A stretch of DNA of 64,000 bases from Planctomycetaceae bacterium (GTDB taxonomy: Bacteria; Planctomycetota; Planctomycetia; Pirellulales; Pirellulaceae), in contig JAAYDI010000061.1 in the NCBI GenBank assembly GCA_012729315.1, forward strand, positions 1 through 64,000, given 5' to 3'. Positions 30,677-42,430 of this stretch are shown one piece after another. Every line of letters starts with the position of its first letter. Positions within the stretch are counted from its first letter, which is position 1. The notes below the pieces were generated by a model. That model was not told where the DNA came from and did no database searches. It saw only the letters and a program-made list of their open reading frames with translations. Position numbers and translations under genes: made by a program.

Positions 30677-31576
30677 CTACCAACGCTTTTCGTCCCGGCT
30701 TGCCATCTGCGGGTTCTGCAGGATTAGCCCGGACAGGCGTGGAGCGTCGGGATGGGTCGGCGCGAGTGCCAGGGCGCGCTGGAGTGTTTGTTGAGCGGCG
30801 GTGAAATCGCCGGCCAGCTGCCGGGCCTCGGCCAGGTGATACAGCAGTTCGGCCGACTGGAGACCGCGTGCTTCGGCCTGGGCCAGGTGCGTCAGCGCCT
30901 GGTCCGAGCGCCCCAGCGCCTTGTAGGCCAGGCCCTGCCAGAAGAGCAGCGTCGCCGGCTCCTCGCCGGACGAGTAGGATCCGGCCAGCGCCTGGAGCGT
31001 GGCCAGAGCCCGCTGGGGTCGGCCTTGCTGGTAGTACACACCGGCGATCGCCATCCGGACTTCGGGATACTGGGGCTGCATCGCCAGCGCGCGGTGGTAG
31101 TCGGCTAACGCCCCGTCCGACTTCCCCTGCCGCTGGCGGATATCGCCGCGCAGCCGGTAAGCACTGGCCAATTGCCGGCCGGACAGTATCACCCGCTCGG
31201 CCAGACGAGCCGCCTGCTGCAGGTCGTTGGTCGCAAGGTACATTTCGCCAAGTCGCACGACCAGTTCCGGATCGCCGCCCGATAAACGCACCGCTTCCTG
31301 CATGTGCTCCAACGCGTCCTTCCGCGCGCCGCGTCGCCAGAGCGCTTCGGCATAGCGTGCCTGTACCCGCTCGTCGACCGGACAGACATCCACGGCCTGA
31401 GCGAAGAACTGCTCCGCCCGCTGCCAGTTGCCGGCATCCACGGAGTCCATGCCGCGTTGAGCAATCTGTCGAGCCAGCACCACGTCGTCCGGCTGTAGTC
31501 GGCGCGAGAAGCCGGAACACCCGAGGCCGGCGGGAACCAGCAGCAACAAGACAGTCCACCGCGCAGCACACCACAT
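30677..31576 (-). CDS. TPR-repeat lipoprotein
   Basis: A 299-residue protein. From MWCAARWTVLLLLVPAGLGC it has a lipoprotein signal with lipobox GLGC (Cys20). The rest consists of about seven tetratricopeptide repeats (for example WQRAEQFFAQAVDVCP, SDGALADYHRALAMQPQYPE, FTAAQQTLQRALALAPTHPD). TPR solenoids mediate protein contacts, so it likely organises an envelope complex; no partner is evident in the neighbourhood. An upstream in-frame start at 31663 would bury the signal peptide and is unlikely. Confidence 0.88.
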   Translation of the reverse strand: MWCAARWTVLLLLVPAGLGCSGFSRRLQPDDVVLARQIAQRGMDSVDAGNWQRAEQFFAQAVDVCPVDERVQARYAEALWRRGARKDALEHMQEAVRLSGGDPELVVRLGEMYLATNDLQQAARLAERVILSGRQLASAYRLRGDIRQRQGKSDGALADYHRALAMQPQYPEVRMAIAGVYYQQGRPQRALATLQALAGSYSSGEEPATLLFWQGLAYKALGRSDQALTHLAQAEARGLQSAELLYHLAEARQLAGDFTAAQQTLQRALALAPTHPDAPRLSGLILQNPQMASRDEKRW

Positions 31577-31937
31577 GCACTGTGATGTGTCACGCGATCC
31601 GGGTACAACACTGCCGTGCTCGGAGCTCCCGGTTGCTGCATTGTGTATAACACACGCCAACACAAGAAATCTCCAAACTCCCAGGTGGTATCGGCAGCAG
31701 AGCGAACGGTATCAGATGCTTCGACCGCCGACAAGAAGGAATTTATCGACCGTATACAGTAAACACGCAGAGCCCCCTGCCCCCCCAACTTCCCGGCTGA
31801 AAGCAGGACGACTAGGATGGGCAAATGGCGGCTGGACTGTGCACCGAACCGCCAAGGTAGCTGGTCAGGCCTTCATTCGTTCTTGGACCTGGAGTTCGGC
31901 GAGGCACGTGAGCCTACCGGGCCGCTATGGTGACGTG

Positions 31938-33089: not shown

Positions 33090-36000
33090 CTATTTCGCGG
33101 TGTCTTCGTACAGCGGAAGGTGCCGATACGTCACTTCGAGCGAGAGCAGATTCATTGTGGTGACGTAGAGTCTTCCGGCGTGCGCCGCCCAGCGGTCGGG
33201 CACCGGCTGGTGGGGATCCCAGCTGCCCGCGAGTTCACCCTGGCGGATCTGTGTCTCGACCAGCAGCGGGTGGAGTGCCTGGTGCCAGTCCTGCCAGAAC
33301 TTGCCACCCATGTGGAACATGACCTGGGTGCCGTAGTACCAGTAGTACGTGTCGCGTTTCGGATCGACTCGCGTGCCGATAGCCGGGGGAATCCTGGAAA
33401 GATACGTAGCGCCCCGAGCAAGTGCCGGGTTATTGCGGCGCCATCCCAGGTACATGCGCATGAGCAGTCCGACGGAGGTCATAGTGGCGGTTGGCTTACG
33501 TCCCGCTCGCTGTTCGGGCGTATCGGGGGCGAACGGGTTGTAGCAGTAGAGATGTGGTTGTGTTGAGGAGGCCTGAGCGCGGTCGAGCCAGCGGTCGATG
33601 GCGGCATAGGTTTCCTTGGGCACCTTCAGATTGGCCAATTCGCCACTCTTGAGCGCCATAGTCATCCAGCCGCTGACCGAGGTATCGGAACTCACACCGC
33701 GCGTGTATCGCCAGCCGCCGCGCTGGACATTCTGGGTTTCGACGATGAAGTCGATGGCCCGCTGAGCCGGCTCGCGCAGCATGGGATCCTGGGTCATGCC
33801 ATACGCTTCGCATACAGCCAGTGCAGCGATACTGTGGCTGTAGAACTGCACGACGCGATTCGACTCGTCGTCCATCGGAATGAACAGGCTGCCATCCGGC
33901 TGCTGGTTCTGGAGCAGGAACTCGACTCCGCGCCGCACCACGTCGGCATAGCGGAACTCGATATGGTTATAGCCGGCACCCTGGAACGCGAGCAGCGCGA
34001 GGCCTGTGGCGGCGGCGTCGCTGGCCAGCTGTGGAAGGCCGTCCTGTCGGGCGAACCGGTCAAGCGACCACCGGCCGTCGGGCAATTGGGCCTTGCTCAA
34101 GAAGACCAATCCCAACTCGATGGCATCTTCGGTCTGGGGTCCGACGCCGCCGGTCGGGTCGCTCCGCCCTTGCGCTCGCTCAATGCGGCGCTGGAACGAC
34201 TCGGTGGGCATAGCGGCCGTGACGTTAAGACGAGGCTGGCCGCCGACACGATTCCGGTTGAAACGCGAGCTGTCGATCTGAATATCCGTGTTCGGCTCAG
34301 CTGTGCGGCGGGCTGCCAGGCCAACGTCGACAGTGGCGGTGTTGCCGAGCCCGCCGAGGCCGGTCGGAACATCGATATTCACAGGCAGAGGCTGCCCGGC
34401 CGAGCGGCTGACCGGGCCCGATCGCGGGCCGCCGAGCGCTGGTGTCACGTCCGTACTCAGGCGACCGGCCACATCGCTGGGGCTGACGACGTCAGCCAGG
34501 TCCACGGTGGTGGCATCGCTGGGCAGTTGGAGTTGAGCGGATCGTTTGCCGGGCCCGCCGCGTTGTGTGGCGTCGCGCACAAGAGGTCCGTCGGCTGCTG
34601 AGTTCTGGCCTGCGTGGCGCGTGGGGCTTGCGCTGGGCAGCGTATCAACTGCCGCGACACTCAGCGGCATTGCCGGTCCGCCGCCCGGCCGGTCGCGGCG
34701 GGATGCGGCGGGCGCGTTGGTGGCCAGCCGGCTCGCCTCCGAGTGTGGCAGATCTGAGGCTTGTGGGTCCGCCTGTCCGTGGGCTGTGGGAGTGCCCGCG
34801 ATGTCGACGGTGTCTGCGAGGGTATCTGCCCAGACGGCGGGCCCGCGACCAGTACGGGGTGGCGAGCCGGTACCGCCGCCGACCGCAGGCTGGCCGGTCG
34901 CCGCCTGTACCGCTTCGGCCCGTGCGGCCAGCGACGCGGGTCCCACGTCTGCCGGATTCGCCGCGTGCGCTCCGGCAGACGGATCGGCGGTTCTGTCGAT
35001 GGGTCCGCCAGCATCGGGCGCGGTGCGTTCCGCGGCAGTCACGGCCGTGTCGCTGCTGGCGAGTGTTGTGGATGGCAGGTGGTCGTCGCTCTGTTCGGCG
35101 GCGTTCCCGGCGCTGAGATCCGCGACGCCGGCGTCCACAGGCAGCTGACGGTCCGCGTCCGACCTGGGAGCGATATGAGGAGCGTGGTGGCTGTCGTCCT
35201 GCAGGGCGAATTCGTCCAACAGTCCATGAGCGCGCCGCAGGGCATCGTGCGGGGAGACAGTGGGCACGTCTGCCGGCCCGCCGCCCACCGCCTGCGGTCC
35301 GCCGATAGAGTCCGGTTGAGGACCGGGGCGGGCGTCGAGCAAAGCGTGTGCGTTGACATCCACATCGGCAGCGGCGGGTAGTCCTCCGCCATCACTCGAT
35401 GGTGCGGTGACGGTTGTGCCGGGCGTCTCGGCCAGCAGTGACGGGAGTGGAGCGTGGCCCGACTGTGCCCGCGGGACGGTTGAGCGCTGGGTTCCGAAAC
35501 TCAGGTCCGGCTGGCCACCTCCGGCGCCACGTCCTGATCCGGTTTCTGTCACGAGCGTGGTCGGACCGGTGTCGACGTCCAGGTTGCCTTTGGCGGCCGT
35601 GATGCTGCCGCGTTGGGCGTCAGACGCCGCCTGAGCCAGTGCCGCGCTGGCGCTGGCCTGGATGTCCGCCGGCTGCCGGGCGCCCGCCCGCAGTTCCGGG
35701 CTGAGTTGAATGGGGGCGAGCACGGCGCTGGGTTGCGGCTGGCCCGCACGTCCGCTGCGTACGATTGCGGCATCGTGTGGCTCGAGGGCAGGCCCGGCCG
35801 GCAGATTCTGAGTGGCCTGAGCGCGGCGGGCTGAGCCGGAGGCGACAGCGCCGGGGCTGGTGCCTGCGGGATCCGCCTGGCCCAGGTTGTGCGACATGCC
35901 GCGACCGGCCGTGCCAAGTTCGGCTTTGCTCAAGGCCATTACGGCCGGTTCGGTCGCGGTGGCCGCCTGTTCCGCGGCCGATGCTGGGCGGCTCGGCGTC

Positions 36001-37808
36001 TCCGCCGCGAGTGGCGACACGGCGTCAGGCGCGTCACGCAGTGCGCGGCGCGGGTGTGGATTCGTGTCGGGCACGGCGGTCAGCGACGGTGCGGGGGTGG
36101 CGGACGGTCGACGCGGCTGGACGAGCGGCGTCTGGTCGACGGCGACGGAACCGATCGTTTCGGCCGGCGCGCGTTGCCGCTCAGCGGTCCCATTCCCGGC
36201 CGCTTGCCGGGCCACGTCTATGTGGGCCGAGGCGGCCGGACCGGCGAGTGTGCGTGAGGGCTCGACCGCACCGGACTCGGCCGCTACGGGACTCACGCGT
36301 TCAGCCAGCGCGCCGAGTGCGGCTGCGTCGGCGGGCTGGCGGCCGGGCAACGTCGCACTGACCGGATCGGTCGGCCGCTGCGTGTCTGCAGGCGATCGCC
36401 GCACCCGGCCAGCTGCTGCCGGGTCCCGATCGGCCGCGTCTGGAGCGACCGGTTGGGGACCCTGCACGACCGCCGCCATCTGCTGATCCTTGGTCCGCTG
36501 GGTCGGCTGGGCGGGGGCAGTGGGCAACGGCTGCACCTCGGTCGCTGGCGGCGGTGTGGTGCTGGGCGCGGAGACGCGTTCCACGCTGGCAGTCAAGTCA
36601 GGCCGTGTGGTGACGCGCGCCTGGCGATTGGAAGCCGCTCGCGGTGTCTGGGCGAGTGTATTGCGCGCGGGCGACGGCTGTTCGACATCTCGCCGCCGGG
36701 ACGTTGACTCGGTGACCGGGTGACGTGGTGGAGGGTCCACACGACGGCGCGCCTCGGGTGCCTGTGTCAACAGTTTGTCATCAACATCGGTCGCACGCGG
36801 CTCGGGAGTCGCGGCGGCCTGCGACGGTGGCGTCTCCGGTTGACTCCGCGCAATCGCTGCCGATTCGGGTGTGACGGATCGGGTGCGGTCAGCGCGGGGC
36901 ACGGCGGCAGCCGGCGCGGACGGTTCCGGGCTCGGCTGGGCCGACTGCGGACGGCGTGCCAGCTGGAGGTCGGGGGCCGGGCTAGGCATCATCGCCGGTT
37001 GTTGTGCCGGCCGGCGGGGCTGCTCGGCCACGTCAGTCTCGGGCTCGAGCCCCATCACCTCAGCCTGGACAACATCCTCGCGACGTTCCGGGCGAGGTAC
37101 CACGGCGGGTATGTCGGCCAACTGTGTCGGGCGATTGGGCAGTGGCGAATGCCGCCGGCTCAAGACCGACATATCGTCGCGTTGCCGAGGCACAGTCTGA
37201 TTCGGTTCCGCCCGGTTGACGACGCTCGGCAGCGGGACGTCCTGGGGGTCCGGGACCGGCCGGGCAGGCATGTCGATGGTGGTCGGATCTGGCTGCTGAG
37301 GTGCCGCCCGTGCGGTGGCGAGTTCGGGCTCGGGCGTCTGTACCGTAACCGGCTGTTCGAAATCATGGCGTGGTTGGCGTTCCGGTGCAGGCCGCCACGC
37401 TGTGACGGCGGGGGGCTTCACTGTGCGTGGCTGCGGTGGCCGCTCGGTGGCCGCCACCATTTCAACCCACGCGCGTTGGAACACGTCGGTCTCGAGTGAC
37501 GCGATGAACAGCACGACGTGGACGATCACGCCCAGGACGATCGACAGCTGCATGGTGCGGCGCAGCAGCCGATTGCCGGTCCACGCCAGGACAGCCAGCG
37601 CTGTGGAGATGACCAGGACGATCACGATCAGCCAGGTCCAGGCATTGGCGAACCAGCGGGGATCGTCCAGCCGCAAGTACGCCAGAACAGACCCGGCCAG
37701 GAATCCGCCCAGCACGACCAGGGCCACGACCAGCGGCCACAGCTGGTCGGTGATGCGCCGGTAGCGCACCGGATGTGTCTTTCGAATGATGTGTCGCGTC
37801 TTGGCCAT
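33090..37808 (-). CDS. Giant membrane-anchored protein with disordered linker and terpene-cyclase-like toroid (TonB/TolA-like architecture)
   Basis: A 1,572-residue protein. Three membrane helices lie at about 24-45, 56-77 and 86-105. Then comes a region of about 1,100 residues rich in Pro, Ala, Arg, Asp and Thr with no fold. From about residue 1235 the sequence is an alpha-toroid of the prenyltransferase/squalene-cyclase class: ELGLVFLSKAQLPDGRWSL, GVEFLLQNQQPDGSLF, ETQNVQRGGWRYTRGVS (QW-like motifs). The cyclase DxDD motif is absent, so it is unlikely to be an enzyme. It starts 3 bases after exbD in an operon with ExbB, ExbD and a TPR protein. With an odd number of helices the linker and toroid should be periplasmic. 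I infer a force-transmitting TonB/TolA-like role; this is untested. Confidence 0.9.
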   Translation of the reverse strand: MAKTRHIIRKTHPVRYRRITDQLWPLVVALVVLGGFLAGSVLAYLRLDDPRWFANAWTWLIVIVLVISTALAVLAWTGNRLLRRTMQLSIVLGVIVHVVLFIASLETDVFQRAWVEMVAATERPPQPRTVKPPAVTAWRPAPERQPRHDFEQPVTVQTPEPELATARAAPQQPDPTTIDMPARPVPDPQDVPLPSVVNRAEPNQTVPRQRDDMSVLSRRHSPLPNRPTQLADIPAVVPRPERREDVVQAEVMGLEPETDVAEQPRRPAQQPAMMPSPAPDLQLARRPQSAQPSPEPSAPAAAVPRADRTRSVTPESAAIARSQPETPPSQAAATPEPRATDVDDKLLTQAPEARRRVDPPPRHPVTESTSRRRDVEQPSPARNTLAQTPRAASNRQARVTTRPDLTASVERVSAPSTTPPPATEVQPLPTAPAQPTQRTKDQQMAAVVQGPQPVAPDAADRDPAAAGRVRRSPADTQRPTDPVSATLPGRQPADAAALGALAERVSPVAAESGAVEPSRTLAGPAASAHIDVARQAAGNGTAERQRAPAETIGSVAVDQTPLVQPRRPSATPAPSLTAVPDTNPHPRRALRDAPDAVSPLAAETPSRPASAAEQAATATEPAVMALSKAELGTAGRGMSHNLGQADPAGTSPGAVASGSARRAQATQNLPAGPALEPHDAAIVRSGRAGQPQPSAVLAPIQLSPELRAGARQPADIQASASAALAQAASDAQRGSITAAKGNLDVDTGPTTLVTETGSGRGAGGGQPDLSFGTQRSTVPRAQSGHAPLPSLLAETPGTTVTAPSSDGGGLPAAADVDVNAHALLDARPGPQPDSIGGPQAVGGGPADVPTVSPHDALRRAHGLLDEFALQDDSHHAPHIAPRSDADRQLPVDAGVADLSAGNAAEQSDDHLPSTTLASSDTAVTAAERTAPDAGGPIDRTADPSAGAHAANPADVGPASLAARAEAVQAATGQPAVGGGTGSPPRTGRGPAVWADTLADTVDIAGTPTAHGQADPQASDLPHSEASRLATNAPAASRRDRPGGGPAMPLSVAAVDTLPSASPTRHAGQNSAADGPLVRDATQRGGPGKRSAQLQLPSDATTVDLADVVSPSDVAGRLSTDVTPALGGPRSGPVSRSAGQPLPVNIDVPTGLGGLGNTATVDVGLAARRTAEPNTDIQIDSSRFNRNRVGGQPRLNVTAAMPTESFQRRIERAQGRSDPTGGVGPQTEDAIELGLVFLSKAQLPDGRWSLDRFARQDGLPQLASDAAATGLALLAFQGAGYNHIEFRYADVVRRGVEFLLQNQQPDGSLFIPMDDESNRVVQFYSHSIAALAVCEAYGMTQDPMLREPAQRAIDFIVETQNVQRGGWRYTRGVSSDTSVSGWMTMALKSGELANLKVPKETYAAIDRWLDRAQASSTQPHLYCYNPFAPDTPEQRAGRKPTATMTSVGLLMRMYLGWRRNNPALARGATYLSRIPPAIGTRVDPKRDTYYWYYGTQVMFHMGGKFWQDWHQALHPLLVETQIRQGELAGSWDPHQPVPDRWAAHAGRLYVTTMNLLSLEVTYRHLPLYEDTAK

Positions 37809-37811
37809 GCG

Positions 37812-38225
37812 TCAGTCGTTTTGAGTGGTAATCGAATACCGCTGCGTGCCGGCCAGTTCGCAGAGGTTCATGATCGTGACCACGTAATCAAACGGCACGC
37901 GCCGATCGGCGCGGATGACCACCGACTGGTGGACCGGATTGTCGGCCACAGCCTGGCGCAGCACCTCTTCCACTTCCTGCTGCGACATGGCACGGCCGTG
38001 CACGAAGTACTCGCCGTGCTCATCGATGTTGATGAACAGCTCCTTCGGTTCGACCATCAGCGGTTGCGCTTCGCTGGCCGACGGCAGCTGGACCTCCAAT
38101 TCATAATCTTCCTGTGCGAACTGCGTGGCGACCAGGAAGAAGACCAGGAGCAGGAACACGACGTCGATCAGCGGCGTCATGGGCACTGTTCCCGTAGCGC
38201 GGCCTTTGTTGATTTTGACAGCCAT
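37812..38225 (-). CDS. ExbD/TolR-family proton-channel subunit
   Basis: A 137-residue protein with one membrane helix, MTPLIDVVFLLLVFFLVATQ (about 16-35). It contains the conserved proton-carrying Asp21. The periplasmic domain has LQLPSASEAQPL, ELFINIDEHGEYFVHG and VIRADRRVPFDYVVTIMNLC, all typical of ExbD/TolR. Together with ExbB it forms a proton-driven motor in the inner membrane. It sits directly between exbB and the giant toroid protein, 3 bases before the latter, so that protein is the probable driven partner. I do not use exbD or tolR as a symbol because the system type is unclear. Confidence 0.95.
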   Translation of the reverse strand: MAVKINKGRATGTVPMTPLIDVVFLLLVFFLVATQFAQEDYELEVQLPSASEAQPLMVEPKELFINIDEHGEYFVHGRAMSQQEVEEVLRQAVADNPVHQSVVIRADRRVPFDYVVTIMNLCELAGTQRYSITTQND

Positions 38226-38362
38226 GATCTACTCGTTGTGACGGTGCAGGGGTCAGATCGTTCGGTGTTCCGAAGTACAGTTGTGTGTGTCAGGCGTTGT
38301 GTGCGTGTGCGTGTGTGTGTCAGGCTCGGGCGGCGGCCGGGCGCGGAAGTCACTTCGCGCGT
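38226..38362. other. GT-rich intergenic stretch between exbB and exbD
   Basis: The 137-bp gap contains repeated GTGTGTGTCAGGC and GTGCGTGTG elements (about 38280-38330), a short degenerate GT microsatellite. It spaces the two motor genes of the operon. No promoter is recognisable. Confidence 0.4.
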
Positions 38363-39106
38363 TCACCGGGCGGGGGGCTGAGCCAGGGGTGGTGGTTCGG
38401 CGGTGTTGACGGCGGTCTTTCCGTCGCCCGGCGAGCGGCCGAAGCGTACGCGTCCTTCATACCGCTCGATCTGCGGCAGCAAGGCGTAGAGCATTTCATC
38501 AATCTGGTGGAACAGCTTCTGGATCCGCCCCTCGAAGAAGTGCGCGAGGATCGAGGAGGGGATGGCCACGAGCAGGCCGCCGTAGGTGGTGACCAGGGCG
38601 ATGTAGATGCCGGTAGCAAGTTCCAGGGCCTTGTTCTGGCCTGGTGCGAGCAGCGTGGTGCGGTGGAAGCATTCGATCATGCCCCACACGGTGCCCAGGA
38701 GCCCCAGCATGGGCGTCACGGTGGTGGCGAGGTTCAGCCAGCGGACGAGGCCATAGAGCCGCTCGGCCTCCCGTTCACTGGCTTCGGCCACCGTGTGTTC
38801 CACCTCGCTGTGCGGCCGTCCGACCTTGAGCAGCATGGCTTTCACGACGTTGGCGGCGGCCGACGGATACCGCTGGCAGATCCGATAGGCTTCGCGCGGG
38901 TCGAATGCATTCGGGCTCTCTGCGAGCCCGCCGAGCTCGTGGACCAGCAGCGGGGGCAGCACGCGCGACCGCCGGAGCGAGATGGACCGTTCGATGGCGA
39001 TCACGACCACCACCAGGCTCATCAGGGCGATCGGGATCATGATCCAGCCGCCGGAGACCATCAGCCAGAAGAAGTTCAGCCCTTCGTCTACGTTCACTTC
39101 AGACAT
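38363..39106 (-). CDS. ExbB/TolQ/MotA-family proton-channel protein
   Basis: A 247-residue inner-membrane protein. First helix GGWIMIPIALMSLVVVVIAI (about 19-38), a cytoplasmic loop, then NLATTVTPMLGLLGTVWGMI, the conserved TolQ/ExbB motif, and IYIALVTTYGGLLVAIPSSI. These residues line the proton pathway. A GGAGG site nine bases before the ATG supports the start. It follows the large TPR gene by 66 bases and precedes exbD. The C-terminal tail is Pro-rich. Forms a motor with ExbD; which outer protein it drives is inferred from the operon. Confidence 0.95.
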   Translation of the reverse strand: MSEVNVDEGLNFFWLMVSGGWIMIPIALMSLVVVVIAIERSISLRRSRVLPPLLVHELGGLAESPNAFDPREAYRICQRYPSAAANVVKAMLLKVGRPHSEVEHTVAEASEREAERLYGLVRWLNLATTVTPMLGLLGTVWGMIECFHRTTLLAPGQNKALELATGIYIALVTTYGGLLVAIPSSILAHFFEGRIQKLFHQIDEMLYALLPQIERYEGRVRFGRSPGDGKTAVNTAEPPPLAQPPAR

Positions 39107-39172
39107 TGGATGATCCTCCGCCTATCGTCGGGGCGGCTGCTCCCTGCGTCCCACGTGGAACGTGGCCAGCTG

Positions 39173-42100
39173 TCACAACTGGGCGAGCGCATCGAGTCGT
39201 TTCCGGGCTTCCGCTGCCAGTTCGTTGTCGGGGTGGGTTTCGACGACATATCGATAGAACTTCTTGGCGTCGGCAATCCGCGCCGTGCGGTCGGCGGGGG
39301 TCGCCGCCGACTCGATCAGCACCTCGCAGCAGCGGCCGGCTTCGTAGCCCGCCTTGGCCTGCCAGGTCTGCACGTCTGGCGGCACCTGCTCGGTGCCGTA
39401 GCGGAACATGACGCGCTGGAAATCCTTGATCGCGTCATCGAACTGTTTCTGCTGGAACTGGAGTTCGCCGAGCATGAACTGGGCCCGCGCGCCGGCGGCG
39501 CCGCGCGATCGCTCGGCCGCCTGCTTGTAGTCAGCGACGGCCTGTTCCAACTGGTCGAGTTGCTGGTGCGCGCGCCCCCGTTCGCAATAGGCTTCGGCCA
39601 GGTAATTGCTGTCCGGGAATTGTGTGATGAGCGCATCGAGGAGGGCGATGCTTTCAGGGTACTTCTGCAGCTGCAGCGCGGCCTGGCCGGCGTGCAACTG
39701 GCGCAACACGGCGATCTGAGGGGAAGAGGCTTCCAGCTTGGCAGCTTCGACCAGCGCAGGCAGTGCCTGCTCGTAGTTCCGCATGCGGAAGAGGCATTCC
39801 CCCTTCATGAACCAGGCGTCGGAGGCCAGGTTCCCCTGTGGATGGGCATCGAGTTGGGCCTGGAACTGTTCGAGCGACTCGGGGTACTGCTGCAGCTGGT
39901 AGTGGGTCCAGCCGAGTTTGTAGTGGATCTTTTCGGACAGGGCCGGATTGTTGGCCTGGGCCGCCCGTGTGTATGCCTGGACCGCCTCCGCATACTGTTT
40001 CTTGCCATAGTGGTCTTCCGCGACGTGGAAGTTGGCCTCCGCCGCCAGCGGGCTGGCCGGATGCTGCGCGGCGAGTGTCGCGAAGGCCTGCACAGCGGCC
40101 GCGTCGTCGGGTTGCGATCGATAGGCCCAGCCCAGTTCGTACAGCACGTTGTCGGCGCCCGCATAGTCGGGTTGTTCAGTGAGGAGGGTTGTCAGGGTCT
40201 GAGCCGCCTTCGCGAACTCGCCCTGCGCCGACTCGGCCAGGCCGCGTTCGTAGAGCGCATCCGCGCGCTGAGCGCTTTGCGGACTGGCGGTCAGGAACTG
40301 GTCGATGTCGGCGATGGCTTCCGCGTACTTCTGCTGCTGGCGAAGGGACATGCCTCGTGCCAACAGCGCGTCACTGCGCAGCGGATGGTCCGGGTGCTGA
40401 TCGATCAGCGCCGTGAAACCGGCCACCGCCACATCGTACTGGCCGGCCTTGAGTGCCGCCCAGCCTTGGCCATAGAGCGCATACGGAACATACGTCGACT
40501 GCGGAAACTGCTCGACCACCTGGCCGTAGGCGGCGATTGCCTCGGCAAACCGGTCGGTCGCATAGCGGCACTCCCCCAGTTGGTAATACACCTGATCAGC
40601 CAGCGCGGTGGCCGGATGGGCCTGGAGCAGTGCTTCGAGTGTGGCCAGCGCCTGTTCGGTCTGCTCGAGCTTGCTCTGTGTCCGGGCCAGGTACAGGAGG
40701 GTCTCGTCGGCCTGGCGCCACGTAGCGCTGGCCGCCATCGCCGCCTGCAGCTGGTCCGCTGCTTCGTGGAACTGGTCCAGCTGGAAATGACTCAGCCCGA
40801 TCAGATAACAGGCTTCCGCTTTCTGGTCTGGCGAGGTCAGCTGGGGAGCGAGAGGCAGGAGCAGGTCGATCACCGCCTGGTAATCCTGTTGCAGGTAACT
40901 GACCAGCGCCAGGCGAATCTGCCACAGGCTCTTGTCCGGATGCTCGGCAGTGTCGTCGATCAGCGCGCGATAGAGCGTGGCGGCCTGCGTATAGTCCTTC
41001 TTCTGGATCTGGCACTCGGCGACGATGTATCGGGCGTCGGGTGCGAGGACATGTTCGGCGAACACCTGCTGGAACTGGGTGGCCAGTTCCAGGGCCTGAT
41101 CGTACTGTTTGAGTTCCAGGGCAGCGAACGCGGCGTTGTAGAGGGCCAGCGCCGCCACCTCGTGCTCGGGATGCGTTTTGTAGACCTCCAGGTATTCGTG
41201 CAGGGCGTCGGCCTGGCGCCCCTCGATTTCGTACAGGGCATCAGCCCGATCCAGCTGCACGTTGGCTGCGAACGGGCTGGCTCCGGCCTGTGGCATGATC
41301 TTGTCACAAAGTGCCAGTGCCTGATCCGGGTGCTTGGCGCGCAGGTGGATGCGGCACAGCCAGTGGGCGGCCTCCACCGCCCGCTCGCCCTCCGCCGCCA
41401 CGACCTTGTCCAGCCAGACGGCCGCCTGGTCATACTGTTCAGCGCGATAGTAACAGCGGCCGGCCGCCAGCGTCGCCTCGGGAACCTCCGCAGACTGCGG
41501 GAAGCGTTCGGTCAGCGAGACGTAGAGCGCGGCGGCCTGGGGGAATTTCTCCAGCCGCGTCGCGCAGTACGCCTGCCGCAAGAGCGCGTGATCGGCGGCC
41601 GCAAACCCGTCGACGCCAGCCACCGCTGCGAACATTTCACCCGCCAGCGCTACGTCACCCTGCTGCAGCACCGTCTCGGCTTTCCGCATCTGCACTTCCG
41701 TGACCAGTTCGTCCGTGGGATACCCCTCGAGGAACATATCGTACGCCTTGCTGGCCTGCGCCCATTCGGCCAGTTCTTCCAGCGTCACGCCCAGGGCATA
41801 GAGCGCATCGGACCGCAACTTGGATTCCGGAAACCCGGTCACAAGCTTGCCGTACGCCAGCGCCGCCTCCTTGCGTTTGCCCACCGCATAATGCGACTCG
41901 GCCTCAAAGAACAACGCCTGTTCGACGTGCTTCCCCTTGGGATGGTCGGCCGCGAGCTTTCCAAACGTCTCGGCCGCCAGTGGGTACTGAGCCGCATCAC
42001 CGGCGGTGGCCAGCGAGTAATAGCACCAGCCGAGATTCAGGCAGGTCTCTTCCATCTGTTCGAAGTCGGGATATTTCGTCACCACCTGCCGGAACGACTC

Positions 42101-42430
42101 GGCCGCCTTGGCATACTGTTTCAGCTGCAGTTGGCAGACGCCCAGGTAGTGCAGGGCCTTGGGGGCCAGCGGATCGGTTCCGAAGCGATCCAGGAACCGC
42201 GTCCATTCTTCCACAGCCACCTCAAATGCGCCGTTGTTCTGGTAGTTCGCCGCGTCTGTGTAGATGCTGAGCGCCTCGGGGGACGACTGAGCGGGCGACT
42301 CGGCCGCCGGCTTCTTCTCTTCCTGAGCTGCCAGCAGAGCCGCCAGCCCGCTGACCGTTCCCACCCCCCCCCAGACCGCGATCGCCCCCGTAGCCGCCAC
42401 GAGCAGGGAGACACGAAATGTACGCAACAT
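39173..42430 (-). CDS. Giant TPR-repeat secreted protein of the ExbBD operon
   Basis: A 1,085-residue protein with an N-terminal signal sequence (MLRTFRVSLLVAATGAIAVW; cleavage near LAAQE). An AAGGAG site lies five bases before the ATG. The rest is roughly 25 consecutive TPR-like repeats of 35-37 residues with recurring ALYxLG, KYPD, and FPxS patterns (for example KALHYLGVCQLQLKQYAKAA, VVTKYPDFEQME). It resembles an enlarged CpoB/YbgF, the TPR partner of Tol-Pal systems. It is the first gene of the four-gene operon. A periplasmic scaffold role is inferred. Confidence 0.9.
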   Translation of the reverse strand: MLRTFRVSLLVAATGAIAVWGGVGTVSGLAALLAAQEEKKPAAESPAQSSPEALSIYTDAANYQNNGAFEVAVEEWTRFLDRFGTDPLAPKALHYLGVCQLQLKQYAKAAESFRQVVTKYPDFEQMEETCLNLGWCYYSLATAGDAAQYPLAAETFGKLAADHPKGKHVEQALFFEAESHYAVGKRKEAALAYGKLVTGFPESKLRSDALYALGVTLEELAEWAQASKAYDMFLEGYPTDELVTEVQMRKAETVLQQGDVALAGEMFAAVAGVDGFAAADHALLRQAYCATRLEKFPQAAALYVSLTERFPQSAEVPEATLAAGRCYYRAEQYDQAAVWLDKVVAAEGERAVEAAHWLCRIHLRAKHPDQALALCDKIMPQAGASPFAANVQLDRADALYEIEGRQADALHEYLEVYKTHPEHEVAALALYNAAFAALELKQYDQALELATQFQQVFAEHVLAPDARYIVAECQIQKKDYTQAATLYRALIDDTAEHPDKSLWQIRLALVSYLQQDYQAVIDLLLPLAPQLTSPDQKAEACYLIGLSHFQLDQFHEAADQLQAAMAASATWRQADETLLYLARTQSKLEQTEQALATLEALLQAHPATALADQVYYQLGECRYATDRFAEAIAAYGQVVEQFPQSTYVPYALYGQGWAALKAGQYDVAVAGFTALIDQHPDHPLRSDALLARGMSLRQQQKYAEAIADIDQFLTASPQSAQRADALYERGLAESAQGEFAKAAQTLTTLLTEQPDYAGADNVLYELGWAYRSQPDDAAAVQAFATLAAQHPASPLAAEANFHVAEDHYGKKQYAEAVQAYTRAAQANNPALSEKIHYKLGWTHYQLQQYPESLEQFQAQLDAHPQGNLASDAWFMKGECLFRMRNYEQALPALVEAAKLEASSPQIAVLRQLHAGQAALQLQKYPESIALLDALITQFPDSNYLAEAYCERGRAHQQLDQLEQAVADYKQAAERSRGAAGARAQFMLGELQFQQKQFDDAIKDFQRVMFRYGTEQVPPDVQTWQAKAGYEAGRCCEVLIESAATPADRTARIADAKKFYRYVVETHPDNELAAEARKRLDALAQL

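Follow-up and report, generated by a model that had tools for sequence, protein, structure and literature searches.

A conserved four-gene locus of Pirellulales encoding ExbB, ExbD and a giant alpha-toroid protein, a probable transducer on the TonB/TolA plan

TonB and TolA hold ExbB or TolQ through a transmembrane (TM) helix bearing a Ser-x3-His motif, and in E. coli cryo-EM the contact network of TonB Ser16 and His20 includes Ser34, Pro190 and Trp38 of ExbB (PMC12215075). The vWA proteins were published as a transducer class in 2025, in a paper from which the words squalene, toroid and prenyltransferase are absent (PMC12204202). We found no description of a toroid-headed motor-driven system in the literature searched, with preprints and many subscription journals lying outside that search. 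The window, by which we mean the whole 64,000-nt stretch that was analysed, comes from contig JAAYDI010000061.1 of a Planctomycetaceae bacterium (assembly GCA_012729315.1). On its minus strand, running from 42430 to 33090 (the set spans 33090-42430), we verified four ORFs in the order TPR protein, ExbB, ExbD and giant toroid protein; a sequence-only reading had placed them there, and the ORF check, the translations and Pfam bore out both place and strand. The genes are separated by 66 (TPR/ExbB), 137 (ExbB/ExbD) and 3 bases (ExbD/giant). An Rfam search of the four-gene region gave no match, and promoter and terminator scans gave signals at or below chance level. We think it probable that these genes specify a trans-envelope transducer powered by protons and built on the TonB/TolA plan, in which the third TM helix of the giant docks on ExbB and the toroid grips a partner in the envelope.

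The two motor subunits were readily assigned. The ExbB/TolQ proton-channel subunit (38363..39106, minus strand; 247 residues) matched Pfam MotA_ExbB (PF01618) at 1e-22, with 80.6 bits relative to a curated cut-off of 22.9, and the ExbD/TolR subunit (37812..38225, minus strand; 137 residues) matched PF02472 at 4e-30, with 104.8 bits relative to a curated cut-off of 25.4. The proton-carrying Asp of ExbD is kept in the window and in 36/36 relatives, and the proton-path threonines of ExbB, also present in the window, are kept in 33/33 (Thr148) and 32/33 sequences (Thr181); these proton-path residues are intact in both subunits. The position of ExbB Glu176 is not conserved and holds Ile in the window. 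Among the ExbB residues of the TonB/TolA contact network, Ser34 is kept in 31/33 sequences and Pro190 in 32/33; at Trp38 another residue, usually Val, is found instead.

The last gene (33090..37808, minus strand) encodes a giant putative transducer of 1572 residues, composed of three TM helices, a linker and a toroid. AlphaFold2, run on 28 orthologous giant N-termini, predicted helices at residues 19-44 (TM1, 37677..37754), 56-76 (TM2, 37581..37643) and 80-106 (TM3, 37491..37571, all minus strand), in agreement with the three membrane helices proposed earlier, as well as a short fourth helix (109-122) after TM3; past residue 122 the N-terminal model had no predicted structure. By comparison with the E. 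coli TonB and TolA sequences, TM3 is the counterpart of their Ser-x3-His helix. Its His (His97) is one of the few positions conserved at 90% or above; of 40 aligned giants, 36 have His here, three have Asn and one has Tyr, and the position at -4 is Ser in 25/40 and otherwise another small residue, which in the window is Gly. The four giants with Asn or Tyr nevertheless have ExbB and ExbD adjacent. At the locus with Tyr (L076) ExbB Ser34 is replaced by Ala, the sole such locus in the set; this is one instance of a paired replacement and no more than suggestive. In another relative (L077) the TM3-type helix is the only TM helix and leads directly into the Pro-rich linker, which is the TonB topology. 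The flanks of motor-type helices carry a mean charge of +1.2 before and -2.0 after the helix, which fits the expected insertion from cytoplasm to periplasm; the helices used for per-position residue counts were chosen partly by the Ser-x3-His motif, so that these counts are not independent of it. TM3 thus carries what reads as the TonB/TolA motor-binding signature, and from this we infer that it docks on ExbB. Further along, the Pro-containing segment HDFEQPVTVQTPE (residues 148-160; 37329..37367, minus strand), in which P153 is likewise conserved at 90% or above and AlphaFold2 predicts no strand, is by its position a candidate motor box.

The linker of the giant (residues 123-1216; 34161..37442, minus strand) is rich in Pro and Ala and about 1,100 residues long (1,111 counted), with 13.6% Pro; its composition and the lack of AlphaFold2 structure agree with the disorder over about 1,100 residues that had been claimed for it. 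In relatives the linkers range from 345 to 1,828 residues (median 807) and are likewise rich in Pro and Ala-type residues. The C-terminal 356 residues (1217-1572; 33093..34160, minus strand) were modelled as an (alpha/alpha)6 toroid with a pLDDT of 95.4 and a pTM of 0.94. The best solved match to this model by Foldseek was squalene-hopene cyclase (E 3e-7, TM 0.64, 16% identity), followed closely by other (alpha/alpha)6 toroids, among them the GlcNAc 2-epimerase and GH76 mannanase folds. A motif search found no DxDD in the window toroid, and in the 3/95 aligned toroids that have one it lies at places that look like chance; the fold match and the motif search together uphold the description of a squalene-cyclase-like toroid lacking the catalytic motif. 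The giant scored 24.4 bits (1.7e-5) against Pfam SQHop_cyclase_C, under the cut-off of 26.1, and 30.7 bits against the cyclase equivalog TIGR01507, where the cut-off is 431. The thioester motif C-x-EQ of complement-type toroids was found in 0/95 aligned toroids. Many of the invariant toroid residues are aromatic or charged (W, Y, E118, D159, R330). That the giant is an ordinary squalene-cyclase gene was ruled out by the missing DxDD, the scores far under family cut-offs and the linkage to a motor.

The first gene of the set (39173..42430, minus strand) encodes a TPR protein of 1085 residues that matched many Pfam TPR families, down to 1e-63, and by eye has a plausible Sec signal and no lipobox; in 40 toroid loci a member of its family precedes ExbB. 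The parallel with CpoB drawn in the sequence-only reading was not established: the score against the CpoB equivalog NF008068 was 90.3 bits, where the cut-off is 383, and the cut-off of TIGR02795 was exceeded, but through many repeats. A second TPR protein with a lipoprotein-like start (30677..31663, minus strand) lies 1.4 kb past the giant gene; its family is found downstream in four other loci, and we regard it as a doubtful member of the set.

To examine gene order we fetched 40 orthologous-tier loci from Pirellulales, five of which (L050, L060, L062, L063 and L073) were cut by contig ends or Ns. The conservation of the four genes together had been named beforehand as a point on which the proposal would stand or fall. 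Of the 35 assessable loci, 30 have all four on one strand with their order unchanged (including L079, of the propeller type described below). Two loci (L058 and L074) have the TPR gene and giant without ExbB and ExbD, and at three (L066, L075 and L078) the toroid gene stands with no TPR, ExbB or ExbD detected. A close ExbB is encoded elsewhere in genomes G084, G064 and G067, and none was found in genomes G054, G093 and G063; the giants of G054 and G093 keep the TPR gene. That TPR remains beside the giant where ExbB and ExbD are gone hints that the TPR protein may be the direct partner of the toroid. When the neighbours of all toroid ORFs were clustered, ExbB was found at 42 loci, TPR at 40 and ExbD at 38, and the next family, a protein kinase, at 10; a mere coincidence of neighbouring genes was ruled out by the conserved order, the toroid tree and this clustering. 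The expectation that the toroid's context is tied to the motor held for the giant clade; many shorter paralogues lack local ExbB and ExbD, though most of these keep the Ser-x3-His helix.

The same genome has a second complete set on contig C51 (L087:6045-12518), with a TPR protein of 971 residues, ExbB, ExbD and a toroid protein that has two TM helices and carries LSVFAHLLLF; in the toroid tree its toroid is placed far from those of the giants. Directly upstream of this second set (L087:1-5760) are microcompartment-like genes (BMC shell-like, acetate-kinase-like, aldehyde-dehydrogenase-like and EutN-like), and two TatA-like genes follow it.

Toroid proteins, automatically annotated as prenyltransferase/squalene oxidase repeat proteins, were found in 99/99 relatives, in 149/149 genomes sampled in the class and in 180/199 Planctomycetota genomes, commonly several per genome. 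The scan of genome contigs found no match outside Planctomycetota, and the plasmid search returned one planctomycete record only. Of the toroid proteins that have a TM helix at the N-terminus, 77/107 contained Ser-x3-His, as did 2/207 control helices; toroids were counted per protein and controls (from other genes at the same loci) per helix, and neither count is independent of phylogeny. Of the two matches among the controls, one was a vWA protein, so that the screen recovered the published vWA class unprompted. The shorter paralogues without local ExbB and ExbD mostly have one N-terminal helix with Ser-x3-His; across the phylum they appear to be built like the giant, and they may share motors encoded elsewhere.

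The toroid proteins that we saw beside ExbB or ExbD fall into three kinds, namely the giants with three TM helices, a kind with two (L087, L109, L114 and L116, of which L087 and L116 are far from the giants on the toroid tree) and a propeller kind. The last (L079:3818-7555, L140:2538-6398, L141:1315-4917, L142:7328-10825, L143:295-3801 and L144:6463-10071) has an N-terminal TM helix without the motor-binding His, then a PD40/TolB-like beta-propeller (PD40 was confirmed by Pfam in L079 and L143) and the toroid, with ExbB/ExbD adjoining. Members of all three kinds are accompanied by the same TPR family. Some further arrangements were seen. One locus (L132:2086-9950) has three tandem toroid proteins with a Ser-x3-His helix; an anti-sigma zinc finger (zf-HC2), located cytoplasmically in the first of them, points to a form of the transducer that signals. 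At another (L153:9606-10661) a vWA transducer, with the helix PAWLISIVVHVGLL, lies near an ExbB-ExbD-ExbD-toroid cluster on the same genome stretch. The window's own genome has two tandem toroid proteins by a gene that by eye is OmpH/Skp-like, for a chaperone (L093:5155-9805), and on contig C207 (L090:1039-9254) a secreted protein resembling a diverged toroid with HEAT repeats; on the same strand are ExbB, a pair of ExbD genes and the gene of a large protein resembling TPR with a beta-propeller.

This genome, which is 96.65% complete, gave six ExbB/MotA-family matches and six ExbD matches. One of the former, on contig C112 together with a toroid gene, proved to be a flagellar-type MotA of a MotA/MotB pair, and that on contig C178 is atypical. 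Profile searches of this genome detected neither TonB_C nor the Plug domain of TonB-dependent receptors, and on this ground a Ton system with an ordinary TonB was rejected for it; both domains were also absent from six toroid-bearing relatives (G011, G012, G013, G061, G062 and G066), of which one is a single contig with a completeness of 99%. In some other relatives TonB and receptors are present. Co-dependence of ExbD and toroids across the phylum was not supported: ExbD is kept in most genomes without detectable toroids, so toroids are not the sole users of ExbB/ExbD motors.

The proposal of an ExbB/ExbD-driven machine on the TonB/TolA plan is supported by the conserved gene set, the proton-path residues and the Ser-x3-His helix. 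Under it, protons passing through a motor of ExbB and ExbD, presumably in a 5:2 ratio, would drive the giant, whose TM3 (Ser/Gly-x3-His) would dock on the first TM helix of ExbB as TonB and TolA do; the linker, very long and flexible, would then pass the force to an alpha-toroid that lacks the catalytic motif of the cyclases and would grip a partner in the periplasm or the outer membrane. The machine may, as the sequence-only reading proposed, reach as far as the outer membrane or an outer protein layer. As scaffold or partner of the toroid, the strongest candidate is the secreted TPR protein encoded in the same set. Several features count against this reading: the Gly at -4, the replacement of ExbB Trp38, the giants with Asn or Tyr for His, the propeller kind that lacks the His and yet adjoins ExbB/ExbD, the giants of G054 and G093 without a close ExbB, and the three-TM topology. 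If the toroid were instead an envelope-anchored enzyme, either like a terpene cyclase or an (alpha/alpha)6 protein acting on glycans, which the motor only positions or accompanies incidentally, this would account for the nearest solved folds being class II terpene cyclases, GlcNAc 2-epimerases and GH76 mannanases, and the invariant aromatic and charged residues would suit a pocket; we consider this unlikely, as DxDD is missing in 92/95 toroids, the cyclase equivalog cut-offs are far from reached, and an anchored enzyme leaves both the ExbB/ExbD linkage and the motor-binding helix unexplained.

Quite unlikely, too, is that the toroid proteins bear no force and serve as sensors or regulators linked to the motor, whose helix reports the state of the motor or the proton-motive force, or the load on the envelope, to the cytoplasm. 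The zinc finger ahead of the Ser-x3-His helix in the L132 group and the many paralogues without a local motor speak for such a role; the giants, however, have no recognisable cytoplasmic signalling domain, and a long linker with a secreted TPR partner suits transmission across the envelope. ExbB/ExbD is often encoded far from TonB in bacteria, and with TonB and receptors present in some relatives and ExbD retained in most toroid-less genomes, the motor might instead energise an ordinary TonB or Tol-Pal encoded elsewhere, the TPR and toroid genes being mere neighbours. This we hold to be very improbable given the absence of TonB_C and Plug from this genome and six toroid-bearing relatives, the conservation of the linkage across many families, and the TonB/TolA helix carried by the giant itself.

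Returning to the transducer reading, we are inclined, with some reserve, to extend it to the phylum: the alpha-toroid proteins of Planctomycetota may be a third large class of envelope transducers driven by the proton-motive force, beside TonB/TolA and vWA, sharing ExbB/ExbD motors, and in members without TonB they may be the principal means by which the outer envelope is energised. If so, a phylum-wide family annotated by its fold as squalene cyclases would be recast as motor-driven envelope transducers, and the TonB/TolA plan of motor helix, flexible linker and interchangeable head would be more modular than TonB, TolA and the 2025 vWA cases suggest. It also offers an answer, open to direct testing, to the question of how the outer envelope might be energised in Planctomycetota that lack TonB and receptors.

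With TonB-ExbB-ExbD and TolA-TolQ-TolR (PMC12215075) the locus shares ExbB/ExbD with proton-path residues, a TM helix with Ser or a small residue-x3-His, and a Pro-rich disordered linker followed by a C-terminal globular domain. It differs in that the giant has two extra TM helices ahead of the motor helix, whereas the single N-terminal TM helix of TonB and TolA is seen in L077 and most shorter paralogues; the linkers of the giants run from hundreds to about 1,800 residues, a toroid replaces the small TonB_C or TolA C-terminal domain, and a TPR gene is nearby, whereas neither Pal nor TolB nor a receptor was seen among the four genes. The vWA force transducers (PMC12204202) likewise have an SHLS helix, a disordered linker, a C-terminal domain other than that of TonB and synteny with TPR, tolQ-like and tolR-like genes, but have a vWA domain in place of the toroid and a heterologous ExbD pair where this locus has one ExbD. 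CpoB/YbgF, too, is a secreted TPR protein whose gene accompanies those of a TolQR-like motor; the TPR protein here is four times larger, is TPR throughout and does not reach the CpoB equivalog cut-off. Squalene-hopene and other class II terpene cyclases share the (alpha/alpha)6 toroid fold and QxxDGxW-like repeats, whereas the giant has one toroid to the two of squalene-hopene cyclase, no DxDD, a membrane anchor on a long linker and a motor-linked operon. We conclude that the giant and its set are a toroid-headed variant of the TonB/TolA-like motor-driven transducers, lying outside TonB and TolA by C-terminal domain and topology.
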